From Leptonema illini DSM 21528 (lineage in GTDB: Bacteria > Spirochaetota > Leptospiria > Leptospirales > Leptonemataceae): a stretch of 64,000 nucleotides of DNA. The position numbers and the translations under genes are program-made. This document shows positions 53,882-61,977 of this stretch, piece by piece (the stretch's first letter is position 1; every line of letters starts with the position of its first letter). The DNA is taken from positions 2,163,550 to 2,227,549 of the forward strand of contig NZ_JH597773.1 of assembly GCF_000243335.1 (NCBI RefSeq), given 5' to 3'. The notes beneath the pieces were generated by a model. It searched no databases and was not told the DNA's origin. It was given only the letters and a program-made list of their open reading frames with translations.

Positions 53882-54529
53882 CTAAACGGCGGCCAGTCGC
53901 GACTTACGGATCAATTCCATGATACGCGAATTCTGCAGTGCATACGCAGGCCTGTTAACGAGAAGCAACGCAGTCGATTCCTGGATCGTTTCGAGTTCGA
54001 CGAGACCGTTTGCCCGCAGTGTATTCCCGGTGCTGACAAGATCGACGATACAATCGGCGATTCCCATGAGCGGCGCTACTTCAATCGAGCCGTGCATCTT
54101 GATAATCTCGCAGCTGAGTCCTCTTTCATGGAACCAGCGATAAGCAAGGTGCGGGTATTTCGTGGCCACGCGAATATGCGGCAGCCGAAAAAGCCCATCC
54201 GCCTGAGTGGATGGTGCGGCGACAGAAAGCCGGCATTGCCCGAACGGCAACGCGACGGGAACGGTCAGATCGTAACGATGCTCGAGGATAACGTCACGGC
54301 CGCAAACGCCGGCCTCGGCGCCCCCGTGTAACAGGCAGAGCGGAACATCCTGGTTGCGCACAAGAAGTATGCGCACGGTTCCGGTTTCATCGAAAAAGGA
54401 TAGCTCTCGGCTTGACGGGCCCGAAAAACGGGCAAAGCCGATACGAGCAAAAAACTCCAGGCTTTCTTCTGACATGCGCCCGGCGGGCAGCGCAATCGTG
54501 AACGGCTTATTTTCCACCGGCGCTTTCAT
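53882..54529 (-). CDS. hisG: ATP phosphoribosyltransferase, short form
   Basis: This is the first step of histidine synthesis, joining ATP to PRPP. The 215-residue short form (about 210 in the family) has IALPAGRMSEESLEFFARIGF, LVRNQDVPLCLLHGGAEAGVCG, and the PRPP loop GIADCIVDLVSTGNTLRANG. Short HisG needs the regulatory subunit HisZ for activity, and hisZ is not in the window. Its start lies 23 bases inside the upstream TPR gene, so translation is likely coupled to the rpsA-TPR operon, an unusual setting for a his gene. Confidence 0.92.
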   Translation of the reverse strand: MKAPVENKPFTIALPAGRMSEESLEFFARIGFARFSGPSSRELSFFDETGTVRILLVRNQDVPLCLLHGGAEAGVCGRDVILEHRYDLTVPVALPFGQCRLSVAAPSTQADGLFRLPHIRVATKYPHLAYRWFHERGLSCEIIKMHGSIEVAPLMGIADCIVDLVSTGNTLRANGLVELETIQESTALLLVNRPAYALQNSRIMELIRKSRLAAV

Positions 54530-55262
54530 CTAATAAAAAAACCAGCGCAGCCTGTTTAATTGGAACTACTTCTGGATGCGTCTTTTCATCCATCTTCATC
54601 AGCGTCTCAACGACCTGGCGAACCGCGCTTTCCTTTCCGGTCGCTCTCAGCGCCCGTGCTTGCAAGAAAAGCAGCGTCGCCTTGATCTCGCCTTCATCTG
54701 ACGTGAGGGTTAACGCCTTCTCGGCCGCTGTCAGACTGGCTCCGGCTTCGCCGGCTCCTTCATAGAGAATAGCGGCGCGCGTATACATGAAGACTTTAAG
54801 CGAAGGAGCTTCTACCTTCTCGGCAAGCTGTGAGGCAACTTCAGCCGCATCCTTTTTGCGATCGGCCTTTTCCAGCAGAGCAAGCTTATGCATCAGGCCC
54901 CGACGTACGGCGTTATCCGTCGTATGGGCGGCCGTATATTCATCGAGTTTTCGCACGGCTGCCGATGGATCGGCGGCGGCCGTCATCACCGGGTTCTTCA
55001 AGAGTTCTTCATACGCGAGAAGGGCCTTATCTTCACGCGAAGTCTGATAGATATCATATACGACAAGACCGACAAGCGTGATGAAGCCCGCTCCCACGGC
55101 AAAAAGAACGGCGCGAATATTGTCCCTCAGATAATAGAAGAACTTCGCCACCATCAGCTCATATTTGCTGCCTTCAAAACCCGCGAACAGATCATACACG
55201 GCCTCATGAACCTGATGGGCCTTCTCAACAGTCTTTTTACGATGCAATCGTTTCGTGCTCAT
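54507..55262 (-). CDS. membrane-anchored TPR-like protein (YfgM-like)
   Basis: The 251-residue protein has a basic N terminus of about 45 residues, a membrane helix AVLFAVGAGFITLVGLVVYD, and then a helical TPR-like domain outside (LLAYEELLKNPVM, EAPSLKVFMYTRAAILYEGAG, IKATLLFLQARALRATGK). This layout resembles YfgM, the ancillary SecYEG/BamB-associated protein, but similarity is structural only. The ATG overlaps the rpsA stop as ATGA, and the end overlaps hisG. Confidence 0.75.
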   Translation of the reverse strand: MSTKRLHRKKTVEKAHQVHEAVYDLFAGFEGSKYELMVAKFFYYLRDNIRAVLFAVGAGFITLVGLVVYDIYQTSREDKALLAYEELLKNPVMTAAADPSAAVRKLDEYTAAHTTDNAVRRGLMHKLALLEKADRKKDAAEVASQLAEKVEAPSLKVFMYTRAAILYEGAGEAGASLTAAEKALTLTSDEGEIKATLLFLQARALRATGKESAVRQVVETLMKMDEKTHPEVVPIKQAALVFLLDESAGGK

Positions 55263-56974
55263 TGATCAGGCTCGTCGTTTTTCTGATTGAGGTTATTCTT
55301 GAGTAGAGCGCCGAAGCTGTAGCCTTCGTTCTCGGGCACCATGTACCGGCTCATCAATTCTTTCTGCTGGCGACGGTCGTAGTCTTTAATCGAAAGCGAT
55401 ATCCTTTTTTCATCGGCATCGATCTTGAGAAGAACGGTCTTCACCTCATCGCCGACGGAATAACGCTCTTCGATCTTCTCGTCGCGGCGCAGCGGCAGAT
55501 GAGAGACATGAACAAGTCCCTCGAACCCTTCGCCGATATCGACAAAAACGCCGAACGAAGTGATATTCGTGATCTTGCCGTCGATAGACTGGCCCTTTTT
55601 GTATTTCTGCTTCAGGGCCTCGTAAGGGCCTGGAGTGAGCTGTTTAATTCCGCAGGAGATACGGTGGTGCTGTCGGTCAACGTCCAGAATCTTGAATTCA
55701 ACCGTCTGCCCTTTGCGCAACATCTTGCGATCGGGATGATCGTCCCAGCTGTAGTCTTTAAAATGAATCAGACCTTCGACTTCTTCGCCGAGTTCCACAA
55801 AGGCGCCGAATTTAGTGATACTTGTTACGACTCCCTGACGCACATCGCCAGCCTTAGCGATCGAATCGATCTGCGTCCATGGATCGGGTCGCGTGCGCCT
55901 GTAACTGAGAGCGATGCGACGCTTATCATGATCTATGGTGAGAATGCAGACCTTCGATTTCTCGCCAGGATTGAAATAGCGCTTCGGATGCTTGAGTTTA
56001 TTCAGCCAGGACAGTTCAGAGATGTGGATCAGCCCTTCCAGACCTTCGCGAACCTCGACAAAGGCGCCATAGTCGGTGATGCTCGTAACCGTACCTTCCA
56101 CGACATCGCCTTCATGAAGCTCTCGCCTTGCCCACTCCCAGGGATCTTCAGAAAGCTGCTTGATACCAAGCGAGAGACGGCGGTTTTCCACATCGATCGA
56201 GAGAATTCGAACGTTGGCCTTATCGCCTTTTTTATAGAGATCGCGAAAAGGACGGTTCGGCTTCCAGCTCAGATCGGACTGATGCACGAGTCCGTCGATG
56301 CCGTCGATGCGAACGAATATACCGAATGATACGATGCGTACGACCTCGCCTTCAAGATCTTCGCCGACCTGATGGGCGGCGGTGAACTGATCCCATTTTT
56401 CGTGGTCCTGTTCTTCTTGAATGACGCGGCGGCTGATGATGCCCGATTTGCGGCGATCGTTGACTTCAAGGATACGGAAGTCGATCTTCTCGCCGCTTTT
56501 CAGATGAGCGCCGCGCGAACGGGCGCTGACCTGCGACTGAGGCAGAAAGAGATCAAGGGCGCCGTAGTCGACGATATAGCCCTTGCGATTCTCCAGCTCC
56601 TTTTTCACAACTCCGGTAAGAGGAACGGAGCTGGCATGAGCTTCTATGATTTTATTCCATGCTTCGCGGCGACGCGCTTCGGCATGCGATACGAGCGTAT
56701 TTTCTTCAAGGCCGGCGCCGCGCATAACGACGACGGTAACGCGCATGCCCGGTTCGGGCGTGCCCTCGAATTCATCGCGCGAGCATACGCCTTCCTGCTT
56801 CTGACCGATATCGAGGAAGACCTGGCGATCGTTTGCATCAAGGACAACGGCATCAAGCAGATCCCCCTTGCTGAATCGGACCATCTCGAGTTGTTCGTTC
56901 TCGCTTTCTTCGAGATACTTTTCAAACTCTACCTTATCGTCCTGTGCTTTGTCAAAGGGAGTCGCTGCCGCCAT
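55259..56974 (-). CDS. rpsA: 30S ribosomal protein S1
   Basis: S1 binds mRNA upstream of the start codon on the 30S subunit. The 571-residue protein has six S1 (OB-fold) domains with the usual pattern: the divergent first two (KGDLLDAVVLDANDRQVFLD, GVVKKELENRKGYIVDYG), then four well-formed ones (FGIFVRIDGIDGLVHQSDL, YGAFVEVREGLEGLIHISEL, FGAFVELGEEVEGLIHFKDY, FGVFVDIGEGFEGLVHVSHL). AAGGA precedes the ATG. Its upstream neighbour encodes cytidylate kinase fused to TyrA, so the classic cmk-rpsA order is kept. Confidence 0.95.
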   Translation of the reverse strand: MAAATPFDKAQDDKVEFEKYLEESENEQLEMVRFSKGDLLDAVVLDANDRQVFLDIGQKQEGVCSRDEFEGTPEPGMRVTVVVMRGAGLEENTLVSHAEARRREAWNKIIEAHASSVPLTGVVKKELENRKGYIVDYGALDLFLPQSQVSARSRGAHLKSGEKIDFRILEVNDRRKSGIISRRVIQEEQDHEKWDQFTAAHQVGEDLEGEVVRIVSFGIFVRIDGIDGLVHQSDLSWKPNRPFRDLYKKGDKANVRILSIDVENRRLSLGIKQLSEDPWEWARRELHEGDVVEGTVTSITDYGAFVEVREGLEGLIHISELSWLNKLKHPKRYFNPGEKSKVCILTIDHDKRRIALSYRRTRPDPWTQIDSIAKAGDVRQGVVTSITKFGAFVELGEEVEGLIHFKDYSWDDHPDRKMLRKGQTVEFKILDVDRQHHRISCGIKQLTPGPYEALKQKYKKGQSIDGKITNITSFGVFVDIGEGFEGLVHVSHLPLRRDEKIEERYSVGDEVKTVLLKIDADEKRISLSIKDYDRRQQKELMSRYMVPENEGYSFGALLKNNLNQKNDEPDQ

Positions 56975-57064: not shown

Positions 57065-58726
57065 TCAGAATTGCTCCTGCAGATGCGCAAGAATCCCCGA
57101 TACAACCATATCCCGGTCAATGTTAGAAGTGTCAATTAGAATCGCCCCGGGCGGTATTTGCAGGGCTCCGATTTTCCGGTTTCGGTCCTGTTCATCTCGA
57201 TCGGCGATCTGTTTTTCAAGCTCTTCAAGAGACGGAGCTTCCATGCCCGATTCAATCAGCTCTTTGCGACGACGCTCCGCCCTCGTTCTCACGGCAGCAT
57301 CGAGATAAAACTTGAACGGCGTATCAGGAAACACAACGGTTCCGATATCACGGCCGTCGACGATAAGGGCCGTCTTTGCACCAAGCTCACGCAGCAGTTC
57401 GTTCACACGATTTCGATACTGCGCATGGTCGGCGATATACCGAATACGTGCCGTAACGGAAGGCGTTCGTATCTTTAGTCCGAGTTCTTCCTCATTCAGA
57501 TAATGCAGCTGCTTTCCATTATCATAATCCACTCGCAGAGCGAATCCGTGCGGATCCGGTGTTTGTTCAAGGAAGACTCTGCCGAATTCCTCGGGCGATG
57601 CCTGCTCGCCGAGCAACTGCATGCAAGCATACGTTAGAGATCTGTAGATGGCTCCCGAATCGGCATGCAGACATCCGAGCCTCCGGGCAATAATACCGGC
57701 AACCGTACTCTTGCCCGATCCTGCCGGTCCGTCCAGCGACAGGATGCGGGGCTTAGCATTCTCGGAGCCCACCACCAGAGAGGAGGAGGCTTCATGCGTT
57801 GCCGGAATCAGGTTTGCCGAACTCCCGTTTCCCATCCTTGCATTGCCATAGATACGATCACGTACCTCATGCGCCCTGCCCTGATACGTCAACACCCAAT
57901 CCGTATCGGATCGTTCGGCGTTTTGTATCAGCGTATCGAGCTCGTTTCGAAAGCTTTTCAGAAAATCAACGATAGGACGTTGATTCGTAGCAAGGATATC
58001 GCGCCACATGACGGGATTTGATCCGGCAATACGCAGCATATCACGCAGACCGCCTCCCGTGATGGCACAGGGCGATTCTTCGTTCTTTGCAAGAAGCAGC
58101 GGATCAGAGAGATAGGTCATGGCAAGGGCGCTGGATAAAAAATGCGGACCATGACTCAAGCCGGCGACAATACGATCGTGGGTCGTCGCATCGAGCCGGA
58201 ACGTATGCATGCCCAGCTCTTTCCAGAATGTTTCGATAGAATCCAGAAGATCAGCGTCTCGATCGACGACGGCCTCTTCGATCCCGTTTATAATTATGCA
58301 GAGCCGATTCACAAAGAGGTCGGGCACCAGAGCCTCGGGCCCGCTGTTCTCAGAACCGCACATCGGATGCGATCCTGCGAATCGAAGGGTCGTGCCGCGC
58401 GCCGCACGCTCAATCGCCAGCCGCGTCGATCCCATATCGGTCACCGGACAGTCAAGCCTCAGTAGCGGAAGCATCTCCACCAACGAAAGCACGGGCGTTC
58501 CGAGAACTACAAAATCCGGGTTATACTGCGCAAGCGTCGTCGGATCGACATCGACAAGAATCGTATCGGCAAGGCCTTTCTCGCGCAGAGCGGCGGCCGA
58601 TCTATCGCTGCGCACCACAGCGATGATCTCTCCTGAAAAATGCGCATGATGGCGCAGCGCATGGGCAAGCGACGCCCCCATCATGCCCGCTCCGTAAATA
58701 ACGACACGCTTCAAAGAAGAAATCAT
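57065..58726 (-). CDS. bifunctional prephenate dehydrogenase - cytidylate kinase fusion
   Basis: One uninterrupted 553-residue frame. Residues about 1-290 are TyrA-like: Rossmann motif YGAGMMGASLA at 10-20, VTDMGSTR, GSHPMCGSENSGPEA, and DRIVAGLSHGPHFLSSALA. After a linker of about 40 residues the cytidylate kinase begins: LDGPAGSGKSTVAGIIARRL near residue 329, LHADSGAIYRSLTY, LIVDGRDIGTVVFPD, and RDEQDRNR near the end. The kinase part has about 228 residues, normal for Cmk. It makes 4-hydroxyphenylpyruvate from prephenate and also phosphorylates CMP/dCMP. It overlaps pheA by TGATG and precedes rpsA. Confidence 0.9.
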   Translation of the reverse strand: MISSLKRVVIYGAGMMGASLAHALRHHAHFSGEIIAVVRSDRSAAALREKGLADTILVDVDPTTLAQYNPDFVVLGTPVLSLVEMLPLLRLDCPVTDMGSTRLAIERAARGTTLRFAGSHPMCGSENSGPEALVPDLFVNRLCIIINGIEEAVVDRDADLLDSIETFWKELGMHTFRLDATTHDRIVAGLSHGPHFLSSALAMTYLSDPLLLAKNEESPCAITGGGLRDMLRIAGSNPVMWRDILATNQRPIVDFLKSFRNELDTLIQNAERSDTDWVLTYQGRAHEVRDRIYGNARMGNGSSANLIPATHEASSSLVVGSENAKPRILSLDGPAGSGKSTVAGIIARRLGCLHADSGAIYRSLTYACMQLLGEQASPEEFGRVFLEQTPDPHGFALRVDYDNGKQLHYLNEEELGLKIRTPSVTARIRYIADHAQYRNRVNELLRELGAKTALIVDGRDIGTVVFPDTPFKFYLDAAVRTRAERRRKELIESGMEAPSLEELEKQIADRDEQDRNRKIGALQIPPGAILIDTSNIDRDMVVSGILAHLQEQF

Positions 58727-59838
58727 CAGAGCACCTTCGCCGCCGGATACGAACCGAGAATCTTGAGAAACGAAGATCTCTCTTCAAGCTTTCTCAGGAT
58801 ATCGGCAATATGCGGATCTTCAAAGTGTCCCTGAAAGTCGATGTAGAAGTTATACTCACCGTAATTGCGACGCGTGATGCGGGACTCTATCTTCGTCAGA
58901 TTGATGCCGGCCATGTGAAACGGATCAAGAATCGAGAAAAGCGAACCGGGACGATCGTGCACTCCGACGATGACCGACGTCTTGTCGTCGCCCGTCGGCT
59001 TGCACTGTTCGTTACCGATCACCCAGAAGCGCGTGATGTTATTCGTCGAATCCTGAATGCTGCGGGCAATGATGCGAAGGTTATACAGCTCGGCCGCAAG
59101 ATTTGACCCTATGGCGGCTCCGTCTTTGCGTTCGGCGGCAAGGCGAGCGGCGGCCGCGGTCGAATTGGTCTCGACGAACTCGACATCTCGCAGATTCAGA
59201 TGAGCGGCTAACCAATCCCGGCATTGTTCCTGCCCGATGCGAATCGAGTAGATACGCCGGATGTCGTCGAGAGCGATCTCATCATGATAGAGAAGATGCT
59301 GCTGAATTCTCGAGAAGTGTTCGGCATATATTTTCAACCCCGATTCAAGAAAGGCGTCCAGCGTCGTCATTACCGAACCGCCCGTGGTGTTATCCACAGG
59401 CACCATACCAAACGTCGCTTCGCCGCCGGCCTCCAGCGTGCGAAAGACGTCGGTGATCGTGGGCAGCGGCAGCGAGCGAACCGATGATCCGAAACGCTGC
59501 ACCGTCGCCATATGCGAGAACGATCCTTCCGGTCCCATATAGGCGACGATCGGACCGCCCTCGATATAGATCGTTCCCGACATCAGCTCTCTGTAGATAC
59601 TCTGCAAAGCCTCGGCCGGAAAACGCGTCGAATCCGGATTTTCCTGATAATAGCTCTCTGCGATGGCCTGAACGTTCTGGTAGACCTCTTTCTCGCGATC
59701 GGGGCGGTACACGGTTTCGTTCCGGTCCCTCTTGACGCGCCCGATCTCATGGGCCAGATCGGCGCGACGCAGGATCATACGCACGATGTCGCGATCCAGG
59801 CCGTCGATCTCCTGACGATAATACGAAAGATCTTTCAT
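58726..59838 (-). CDS. pheA: chorismate mutase / prephenate dehydratase (P-protein)
   Basis: The bifunctional enzyme leads chorismate to phenylpyruvate for phenylalanine. Residues about 1-90 are the AroQ chorismate mutase (YYRQEIDGLDRDIVRMILRR, VYRPDREKEVY). Residues 95-280 are the dehydratase (VAYMGPEGSFSHMA, FGMVPVDNTTGGSVMTTLD). The ACT domain (VIVGVHDRPGSLFSILDPF, LTKIESRITRRNYGEYNFY) gives feedback inhibition by Phe. The stop overlaps the tyrA-cmk start, so the two branches of prephenate metabolism are coupled. Confidence 0.95.
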   Translation of the reverse strand: MKDLSYYRQEIDGLDRDIVRMILRRADLAHEIGRVKRDRNETVYRPDREKEVYQNVQAIAESYYQENPDSTRFPAEALQSIYRELMSGTIYIEGGPIVAYMGPEGSFSHMATVQRFGSSVRSLPLPTITDVFRTLEAGGEATFGMVPVDNTTGGSVMTTLDAFLESGLKIYAEHFSRIQQHLLYHDEIALDDIRRIYSIRIGQEQCRDWLAAHLNLRDVEFVETNSTAAAARLAAERKDGAAIGSNLAAELYNLRIIARSIQDSTNNITRFWVIGNEQCKPTGDDKTSVIVGVHDRPGSLFSILDPFHMAGINLTKIESRITRRNYGEYNFYIDFQGHFEDPHIADILRKLEERSSFLKILGSYPAAKVL

Positions 59839-59866: not shown

Positions 59867-60619
59867 TCAATCAAGAGAGATATCGTCGATGCGGTCGGCG
59901 TCTCCGAACGGCAGTTCTTTGAGATCTCGCAACGGCGGCAGATCGGCAAGCGTATTCAGATGAAAACGCATCAGGAACTGACGAGTCGTCACATAAAGGG
60001 TCGGACGCCCCGGCACGGGACGATAGCCCTGCGGCTTCACAAGCTTCTTCTGTAAGAGGGTCGCAATCATAGCCCTGCTGTTCACTCCGCGCACCTCTTC
60101 GATCTCGGGCAGCGTAATGGGCTGACGATACGCCACGATGGCCAGCGTCTCGATCACCGAACGTGACAGACGTTCGGGCCGGCGATCGGCAAAGACACCC
60201 GAAAGGGCGCCCGAATAGGCCTCAGAGGTAAGAAAACGGTATCCGCCGGCTACCTCACGCAGGGTAATCCCGCCTCCGCGCTCGGTATAGTCATCGACGA
60301 GCGAATCGACAAGGATGCGCGTATTGGTGCGGTCCAGGTTACACTGACGGGCCAGCGCCGTCACAGAGATCGGCTCGGGGCTTACGAAAAGCACGGCCTC
60401 GATCAGACCTCTATAGAAGTCCATCTCCTCTGCCGTAAGCTCGCGGTGAGACGGCAGTCCGGCATCTGAGTCGGACTGAATCGGAATCTCAAGCTGATCT
60501 TCTGATTCGTGCTCTTCCACTTCTCGCTCTGCAAGCTGAACGGCCTTTTCCGTCGCCTCATGTATCTGCGATTCATCGGACGGCAGGAGCTTCTCAGACT
60601 CCACCTGTTTTTTCTTCAT
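59867..60619 (-). CDS. scpB: segregation and condensation protein B
   Basis: ScpB joins ScpA and SMC in the bacterial condensin. After an acidic N-terminal extension of about 65 residues (EVEEHESEDQLEIP), the two winged-helix domains are clear: FYRGLIEAVLFVSPEPISV and YRFLTSEAYSGAL, followed by RSVIETLAIVAYRQPITLPE and EEVRGVNSRAMIATLLQKKL, with PGRPTLYVTT. The extension makes it longer than usual (250 residues). scpA is not in the window. It is first in a run with pheA, tyrA-cmk and rpsA. Confidence 0.92.
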   Translation of the reverse strand: MKKKQVESEKLLPSDESQIHEATEKAVQLAEREVEEHESEDQLEIPIQSDSDAGLPSHRELTAEEMDFYRGLIEAVLFVSPEPISVTALARQCNLDRTNTRILVDSLVDDYTERGGGITLREVAGGYRFLTSEAYSGALSGVFADRRPERLSRSVIETLAIVAYRQPITLPEIEEVRGVNSRAMIATLLQKKLVKPQGYRPVPGRPTLYVTTRQFLMRFHLNTLADLPPLRDLKELPFGDADRIDDISLD

Positions 60620-60868: not shown

Positions 60869-61977
60869 GGCTTTGTTGCGCAAAGATTATCCGAGCCAAT
60901 AGCCTCCCGGATTTCAATTCCAGAACGTTTATTACCTGATCCGCTTCTCTGACTTCGGTTTAGCCGTCTTGATCATTTTATTAAGCATAGAGGCCCGCAA
61001 TGTGACCTCTACTCGCTGATTCTCAAGGTTACGAGCGCTCAGGCGGTCACCGAACGTTCGCTTGTAGCGATAGATTGCCATTTCTACAAGTGATCGTTTG
61101 AAATATCCGCTCTCTGTCTTCCAACCTCCTTTTCCGATTTCCCGAATTCTTTTCACGATTTCATCGCGTGGCCAGGTATTATCCATGGCATTCTCGTATT
61201 TTTCGCTTGATAGAATGGCTCCTTCCCTGCTTGGAATAATGGCTTTGATTCCATGCTGCAAGCATGTCAGAAACACTCTATGAGCATCGTACGCTCCATC
61301 CCCGCGAAAATCCTTTATGTCATAGCCTTGCTTTACGAGTGATCGAATGATATCGGGTGCGGGCTCCGCATCGTGAGTATCACGCTGGGTTAGTAACGCA
61401 GTCAGTATCTGTCCGCTACCTGCATCAATGGCAAGATGAAGCTTGCGCCATGTCCTTCGTTTCCCCGCACCGTGCTCGCGAACTTTCCATTCGCCTTCGC
61501 CGAAAACCTTGAGCCCCGTTCCGTCGAGTACAAGATGAATTGGTTTTGATCGGATTCCCTTCGGCAATTTGATAGAAGGGGAGAGCCGACCCTGTCTGCG
61601 TGAGATTCGACTGTAATCCGGTACTTCCAGATCCAATCCGGAGAGCTTGAAAAGCGATGCCAGCAGCCCCGTTGTTTGCCGTAGAGGCAGCCCGAAGAGA
61701 CTCTTCAAAACGAGAACACATTCAATAGCAGCATCAGAGTATTTATCTCTTCTTCCCCGGCGATTCGGTGTTTCCACGGAATACCAGCGATCCTCAATTC
61801 CATCCTCTATCCAGAGACAGAGATCCCCTCGCTTAACGAGCCCTCTGTTGTAATCTCTCCAGTTCAGAACTCGATAGGGAACCTTTGGATCTTGCTTTCC
61901 CTTTATCCGCAATGCGCTCATAATATCGTTATGTCGCCAAGGCCGCTCAGTACAAGCCTTTTTTGCGCAACAAAGCC
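60869..61977 (-). mobile_element. IS5-family (IS903-like group) insertion sequence, second type, copy 2
   Basis: A second copy of the element at 20066-21174, with the same length, ends and orientation, offset by 40803 bases. The flanks are GAGTGTTCC on the left and GAATGTTCC on the right (61978-61986), a 9-base target duplication with one later change. It again lies within the small hairpin element. No difference from copy 1 was noticed by eye. Confidence 0.93.
60932..61921 (-). CDS. IS5-family transposase (second type, copy 2)
   Basis: The 329-residue DDE transposase has the same amino acid sequence as the copy at 20129-21118, with catalytic motifs VLDGTGLKVFG, FRGDGAYDAHRV and KRSLVEMAIYRYK. 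The frame is intact, so at least one copy may be active and recent. Confidence 0.93.
   Translation of the reverse strand: MSALRIKGKQDPKVPYRVLNWRDYNRGLVKRGDLCLWIEDGIEDRWYSVETPNRRGRRDKYSDAAIECVLVLKSLFGLPLRQTTGLLASLFKLSGLDLEVPDYSRISRRQGRLSPSIKLPKGIRSKPIHLVLDGTGLKVFGEGEWKVREHGAGKRRTWRKLHLAIDAGSGQILTALLTQRDTHDAEPAPDIIRSLVKQGYDIKDFRGDGAYDAHRVFLTCLQHGIKAIIPSREGAILSSEKYENAMDNTWPRDEIVKRIREIGKGGWKTESGYFKRSLVEMAIYRYKRTFGDRLSARNLENQRVEVTLRASMLNKMIKTAKPKSEKRIR

Follow-up and report, generated by a model that had tools for sequence, protein, structure and literature searches.

A tyrA-cmk fusion gene in Leptonema illini, in a phylum where cmk joins its operon neighbors

Does a single gene in Leptonema illini encode both the TyrA dehydrogenase of tyrosine synthesis and the cytidylate kinase Cmk, and how might two such enzymes have come to share one chain? 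The question is raised by one open frame in the window, the 64,000-nucleotide stretch of L. illini DNA that we analyzed (C1:2163550-2227549). The coding strand is the minus strand; the plus strand over the same interval contains seven stop codons. The gene and its neighbors, in window positions, are as follows.

57065 to 58726, minus strand: tyrA-cmk fusion gene, 553 aa (uninterrupted ATG-to-stop frame; Pfam, NCBIfam and solved-structure matches)
57848 to 58726, minus strand: TyrA half, residues 1-293 (PDH_N at 20-174, PDH_C at 180-276; best Foldseek match 4wji)
57746 to 57847, minus strand: linker, residues 294-327 (predicted disorder at 297-324; in-frame ATG298, GTG318 and GTG319)
57065 to 57745, minus strand: Cmk half, residues 328-553 plus the stop (Cytidylate_kin; Foldseek match 2h92)
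58726 to 59838, minus strand: aroQ-pheA, chorismate mutase, prephenate dehydratase and ACT (Pfam)
59867 to 60619, minus strand: scpB, the upstream neighbor (Pfam)
55259 to 56974, minus strand: rpsA with S1 domains, the downstream neighbor (Pfam, NCBIfam)

The initial annotation had proposed that the frame encodes a complete TyrA and a complete Cmk, and the domain searches agree, with full-length Pfam domains above cut-off across the 553 residues. PDH_N scored 53.1 bits, PDH_C 69.9 bits and Cytidylate_kin (residues 330-549) 183.4 bits. The C-terminal half also reached the NCBIfam equivalog for cmk, TIGR00017 (164.2 bits against a cut-off of 135.55), and all of its expected motifs were found: the P-loop GPAGSGKST, DSGAIYR, DGRDIGTVVFPD and RDEQDRNR. 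The TyrA half carries the HPM-G and SH-PH motifs and is predicted to fold as solved TyrA enzymes do (aligned with 3b1f; Foldseek 4wji and 3ggg). Solved TyrA enzymes matched over residues ~4-293 and CMP kinases over 327-550, and the catalytic motifs of the fusion align with those of the solved chains. The matches to both enzymes are far above chance.

An AlphaFold2 model, built with 45 relatives (35 of the 72 TyrA rows found and 10 of the 47 Cmk rows found), had a mean pLDDT of 86.7 and a pTM of 0.63. Its single segment with pLDDT below 50, residues 297-324, lies within the linker. When the model was compared with the PDB by Foldseek, TyrA structures came first (4wji, TM by target 0.89), followed by CMP kinases (2h92, 0.84). 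As modeled, the protein reads as two ordinary, well-formed enzymes on a flexible tether.

The whole L. illini genome (4,522,760 bases in 3 contigs) yielded one match to PF02224 (Cytidylate_kin) and one to PDH_C. Both are the fusion gene, which is therefore the only copy in both families. The separate cmk for which a check had been proposed was thus absent from PF02224 genome-wide, and only a distant Cytidylate_kin2 relative was found. This 238-aa protein (L203:1384-2100, minus strand; C1:3818879-3819391 in the genome) scored 90.6 bits. Against the archaeal-type model of (d)CMP kinase it reached 25.2 of the 102.1 bits required, and it did not match TIGR00017. Judging by sequence, it is a possible second CMP kinase-like enzyme that might share the CMP kinase role.

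The four genes scpB, aroQ-pheA, the fusion and rpsA all lie on one strand. As the initial annotation had it, the frame overlaps pheA and precedes rpsA: the tyrA start and the pheA stop share one base (TGATG), and the rpsA start lies 90 bases beyond the stop of the fusion. Directly upstream of scpB is a DDE transposase (DDE_Tnp_1_5, DDE_Tnp_1; window positions 60932-61921, minus strand). Beyond rpsA lie a TPR protein and then hisG, all running the same way; at 215 aa, hisG (53882-54529, minus strand) has the length of the short type.

A TyrA-Cmk pairing had been called unusual, and our searches bear this out. Matches were found in 46 of the 48 genomes of the class, a set that contains one Leptonema genome, and a single match across residues 1-553 occurred only in the window's own genome. 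We saw no second TyrA-Cmk fusion in the 48 class genomes, of which three from the family are uninformative (one with a piece of cmk at a contig end, two unmatched), nor among the matches listed for 392 phylum genomes, in which distant genomes are partly covered. We found no description of a TyrA-Cmk or PheA-Cmk fusion in the papers and curated families searched, and 0 of 100 matching records in a plasmid collection covered 80% of the query.

Several candidates were rejected. At L065, L079, L080, L108 and L117 both halves were matched, yet by adjacent genes in separate frames. A 617-aa frame in G198 has a TAA between tyrA and cmk, and in the 434-aa case of G154 a stop codon separates scpB from cmk. 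The 536-aa frame of G162 is tyrA lengthened by over-run on its upstream side, cmk lying beyond a stop codon, and the 497-aa frame of G210 proved to be a PheA-Cmk fusion. The G198 pair (L174) is worth recording in its own right: tyrA and cmk share a frame, the single TAA is all that separates them, and the next in-frame ATG is four codons on, so the pair is one substitution short of fusion.

The order of these genes in relatives supports the proposal that the fusion arose from neighbors in the order pheA-tyrA-cmk-rpsA. Among 21 other genomes of the family, tyrA and cmk lie on one contig in 17 and on two contigs, in separate frames, in one; one of the rest has a piece of cmk at a contig end and two gave no match. 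In all 17, tyrA is upstream of cmk, adjacent to it and in a separate frame. With the cmk start taken as the ATG that we chose in each, 11 of the 17 pairs overlap at the tyrA stop by 4-20 bases, and in the other six the ATG lies 10-1,032 bases past it.

Phylogenetic trees grouped the TyrA half with g2, a genus in its own family (support 99/95), and placed the Cmk half inside the main family group (97/94). Both halves therefore appear to have been inherited with the lineage, and horizontal acquisition is unsupported. The Cmk tree puts genus g2 outside the main family group, in conflict with the TyrA tree, and the deeper forks are modestly supported. Three of the four g2 genomes start cmk at an ATG inside the codons for the 'YGN' end of TyrA, in the +1 frame, with an overlap of 17-20 bases.

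From these arrangements we infer a route to the fusion. The ancestral order would have been pheA-tyrA-aroA-cmk-rpsA. In the class families f4 and f5 these neighbors are unfused: tyrA, a frame the size of aroA, and cmk. The one such frame that was scanned (L165) is an EPSP synthase. The departure of aroA would have left tyrA abutting, and later overlapping, cmk; in L. illini, aroA (TIGR01356, 399 bits) is at C1:359130-360350, remote from the window. Some small change within the overlap, such as a local indel, would then have brought both genes into one shared frame. Most likely it was an indel, and a g2-like overlap would become the present frame by a net one-base shift plus a lengthening of the linker. 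The upstream edge of the linker retains a +1-frame ATG, at the site where cmk starts in genus g2, whose frame stops after 13 codons. This ATG is only suggestive as a relic of a separate cmk start because any TAT-GG yields one.

Taken as a whole, we think it highly probable that L. illini makes one bifunctional TyrA-Cmk chain with a flexible linker of ~30 residues, born from overlapping neighbors, and we propose a dimer with a 1:1 output of the two enzymes. The function predicted for each half is very likely ordinary. The N-terminal half would act as a TyrA dehydrogenase, converting prephenate or arogenate to a tyrosine precursor or tyrosine, and the C-terminal half as a (d)CMP kinase, each domain most likely working independently. 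Since TyrA and Cmk share no substrate, no channelling is expected. Pairing of the TyrA half through PDH_C would make the chain a dimer bearing two Cmk domains. The main effect of fusion would be to fix the production of both enzymes at 1:1, and their operon already has a tie to ribosomal protein S1.

It is possible, though unlikely, that the frame is fused yet some or most of the Cmk is produced as a separate protein, either from an internal start at ATG298 or GTG318/319 or by cleavage in the linker. The initial annotation had described neither a stop nor a start between the halves. It was right about the stop; the three in-frame start codons in the linker mean that the rest does not strictly hold. 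These codons, the predicted disorder of the linker and the position of cmk starts in relatives, within or just past the end of tyrA, would all suit a separate Cmk. Against an internal start, no Shine-Dalgarno-like purine run was seen by eye at normal spacing before any of the three codons. This is weak evidence because several other genes of the region also have no clear Shine-Dalgarno sequence. As for the reading of the linker as coding sequence, its score in the fused frame (-0.01 per codon) exceeded those of the other two forward frames (-0.40 and -0.28), although one reverse frame scored higher (0.063). The fused-frame score falls at the 95th percentile of wrong-frame windows but at the 6th percentile of true coding windows.

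The single bifunctional chain becomes less singular when set beside other Cmk fusions, since AroA, PheA and RpsA are all found joined to Cmk in this phylum as well. AroA-Cmk was confirmed by Pfam in class family f3 (L169, L172, L181) and is indicated there at four more loci (L170, L171, L173, L180), where only the length and position of the frame speak for it. In this type (NF008816), too, Cmk follows the enzyme of aromatic synthesis encoded just ahead of it in the operon, but its partner is EPSP synthase, and the L. illini fusion scores 129.6 bits against a cut-off of 943. In TyrA-AroA (NF011381) the next operon gene is again fused behind an N-terminal TyrA; there the C-terminal part is AroA, and the L. 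illini protein scores 152.5 against 902. PanC-Cmk (NF010004) and Cmk-Der (NF007071) resemble it in joining Cmk to an enzyme without a common substrate, but the partners differ (163.2 against 524 and 105.5 against 953, respectively). With whole-protein scores below these cut-offs, the L. illini fusion was rejected as a member of all four families, and no NCBIfam bifunctional model reached its cut-off.

L010, L011, L015 and L177 were confirmed to encode Cmk joined to S1 domains. Treponema TP0279 is named 'Bifunctional cytidylate kinase/ribosomal protein S1' in a table of PMC3373638. The Treponema Cmk-RpsA is similar to the L. illini fusion in joining Cmk to its immediate operon neighbor within the same phylum. 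It differs in that the neighbor is the downstream one, with Cmk N-terminal to it.

The PheA-Cmk frame of G210 (L175:1499-2989, minus strand) contains PDT (residues 8-182), ACT (194-258) and Cytidylate_kin (281-494), and was present in one of the 20 genomes of family f23, a draft that is 72% complete. Like the L. illini protein, it places Cmk behind a prephenate-using enzyme in a gene adjoining scpB, but with PDT and ACT in place of TyrA and almost no linker. By eye or BLAST, its relative G143 has the unfused order scpB-pheA-cmk. In G097, identified by the same means, a 290-aa TyrA-like frame lies after pheA, in the place where cmk follows.

The fusion partner of Cmk in L. illini is the gene adjacent to cmk in relatives with unfused genes, the 17 with tyrA upstream of cmk. 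With AroA, TyrA, PheA and S1 all serving as partners in one phylum, partner choice thus follows gene position, and TyrA-Cmk adds a new pairing to an established pattern in which cmk fuses to its neighbors in the operon.

A bolder view of the same facts takes TyrA-Cmk as the first TyrA fusion to reach beyond aromatic biosynthesis, with one nucleotide kinase, as AroA-Cmk and PheA-Cmk of this phylum would also show, captured by one aromatic enzyme after another and kept for coupling amino acid and CDP supply to each other or to the making of ribosomes; we consider this decidedly doubtful. We consider it very improbable that the fusion was selected for a useful link between aromatic and pyrimidine nucleotide supply, for example by allosteric cross-talk. 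That AroA, TyrA and PheA, three aromatic enzymes, are each joined to Cmk somewhere in the phylum fits such a link, but TyrA-Cmk and PheA-Cmk were each found in one genome only, and proximity alone explains all of the partners. Cmk is also fused to its other neighbor, ribosomal protein S1, and these fusions argue for simple proximity over a regulatory value of the link.

That the genes are truly separate and overlapping, and were joined by an indel error in the linker, is very improbable: tyrA and cmk are in different frames in most relatives, one wrong base would suffice and a single Leptonema sequence lies behind the junction, but the L. illini 3055T genome report (PMC3746420) gives a polished assembly of 1,312x mixed Illumina and 454 coverage with an error below 1 in 100,000, the longest homopolymer near the junction is 4, inspection by eye showed no ribosome site that could plausibly serve a cmk start of its own, and among the forward frames of the linker the fused one scores best as coding sequence.

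The bifunctional chain is a clear example of operon neighbors becoming one protein. Within one phylum there are unfused neighbors, overlapping genes, two genes kept apart by just one in-frame stop (G198), and the fused chain. It also bears on 'Rosetta Stone' inference: because Cmk has been joined to AroA, TyrA, PheA and ribosomal protein S1 by position, a fusion need not signal a shared pathway. For L. illini itself, a single gene appears to serve both tyrosine and CDP synthesis.
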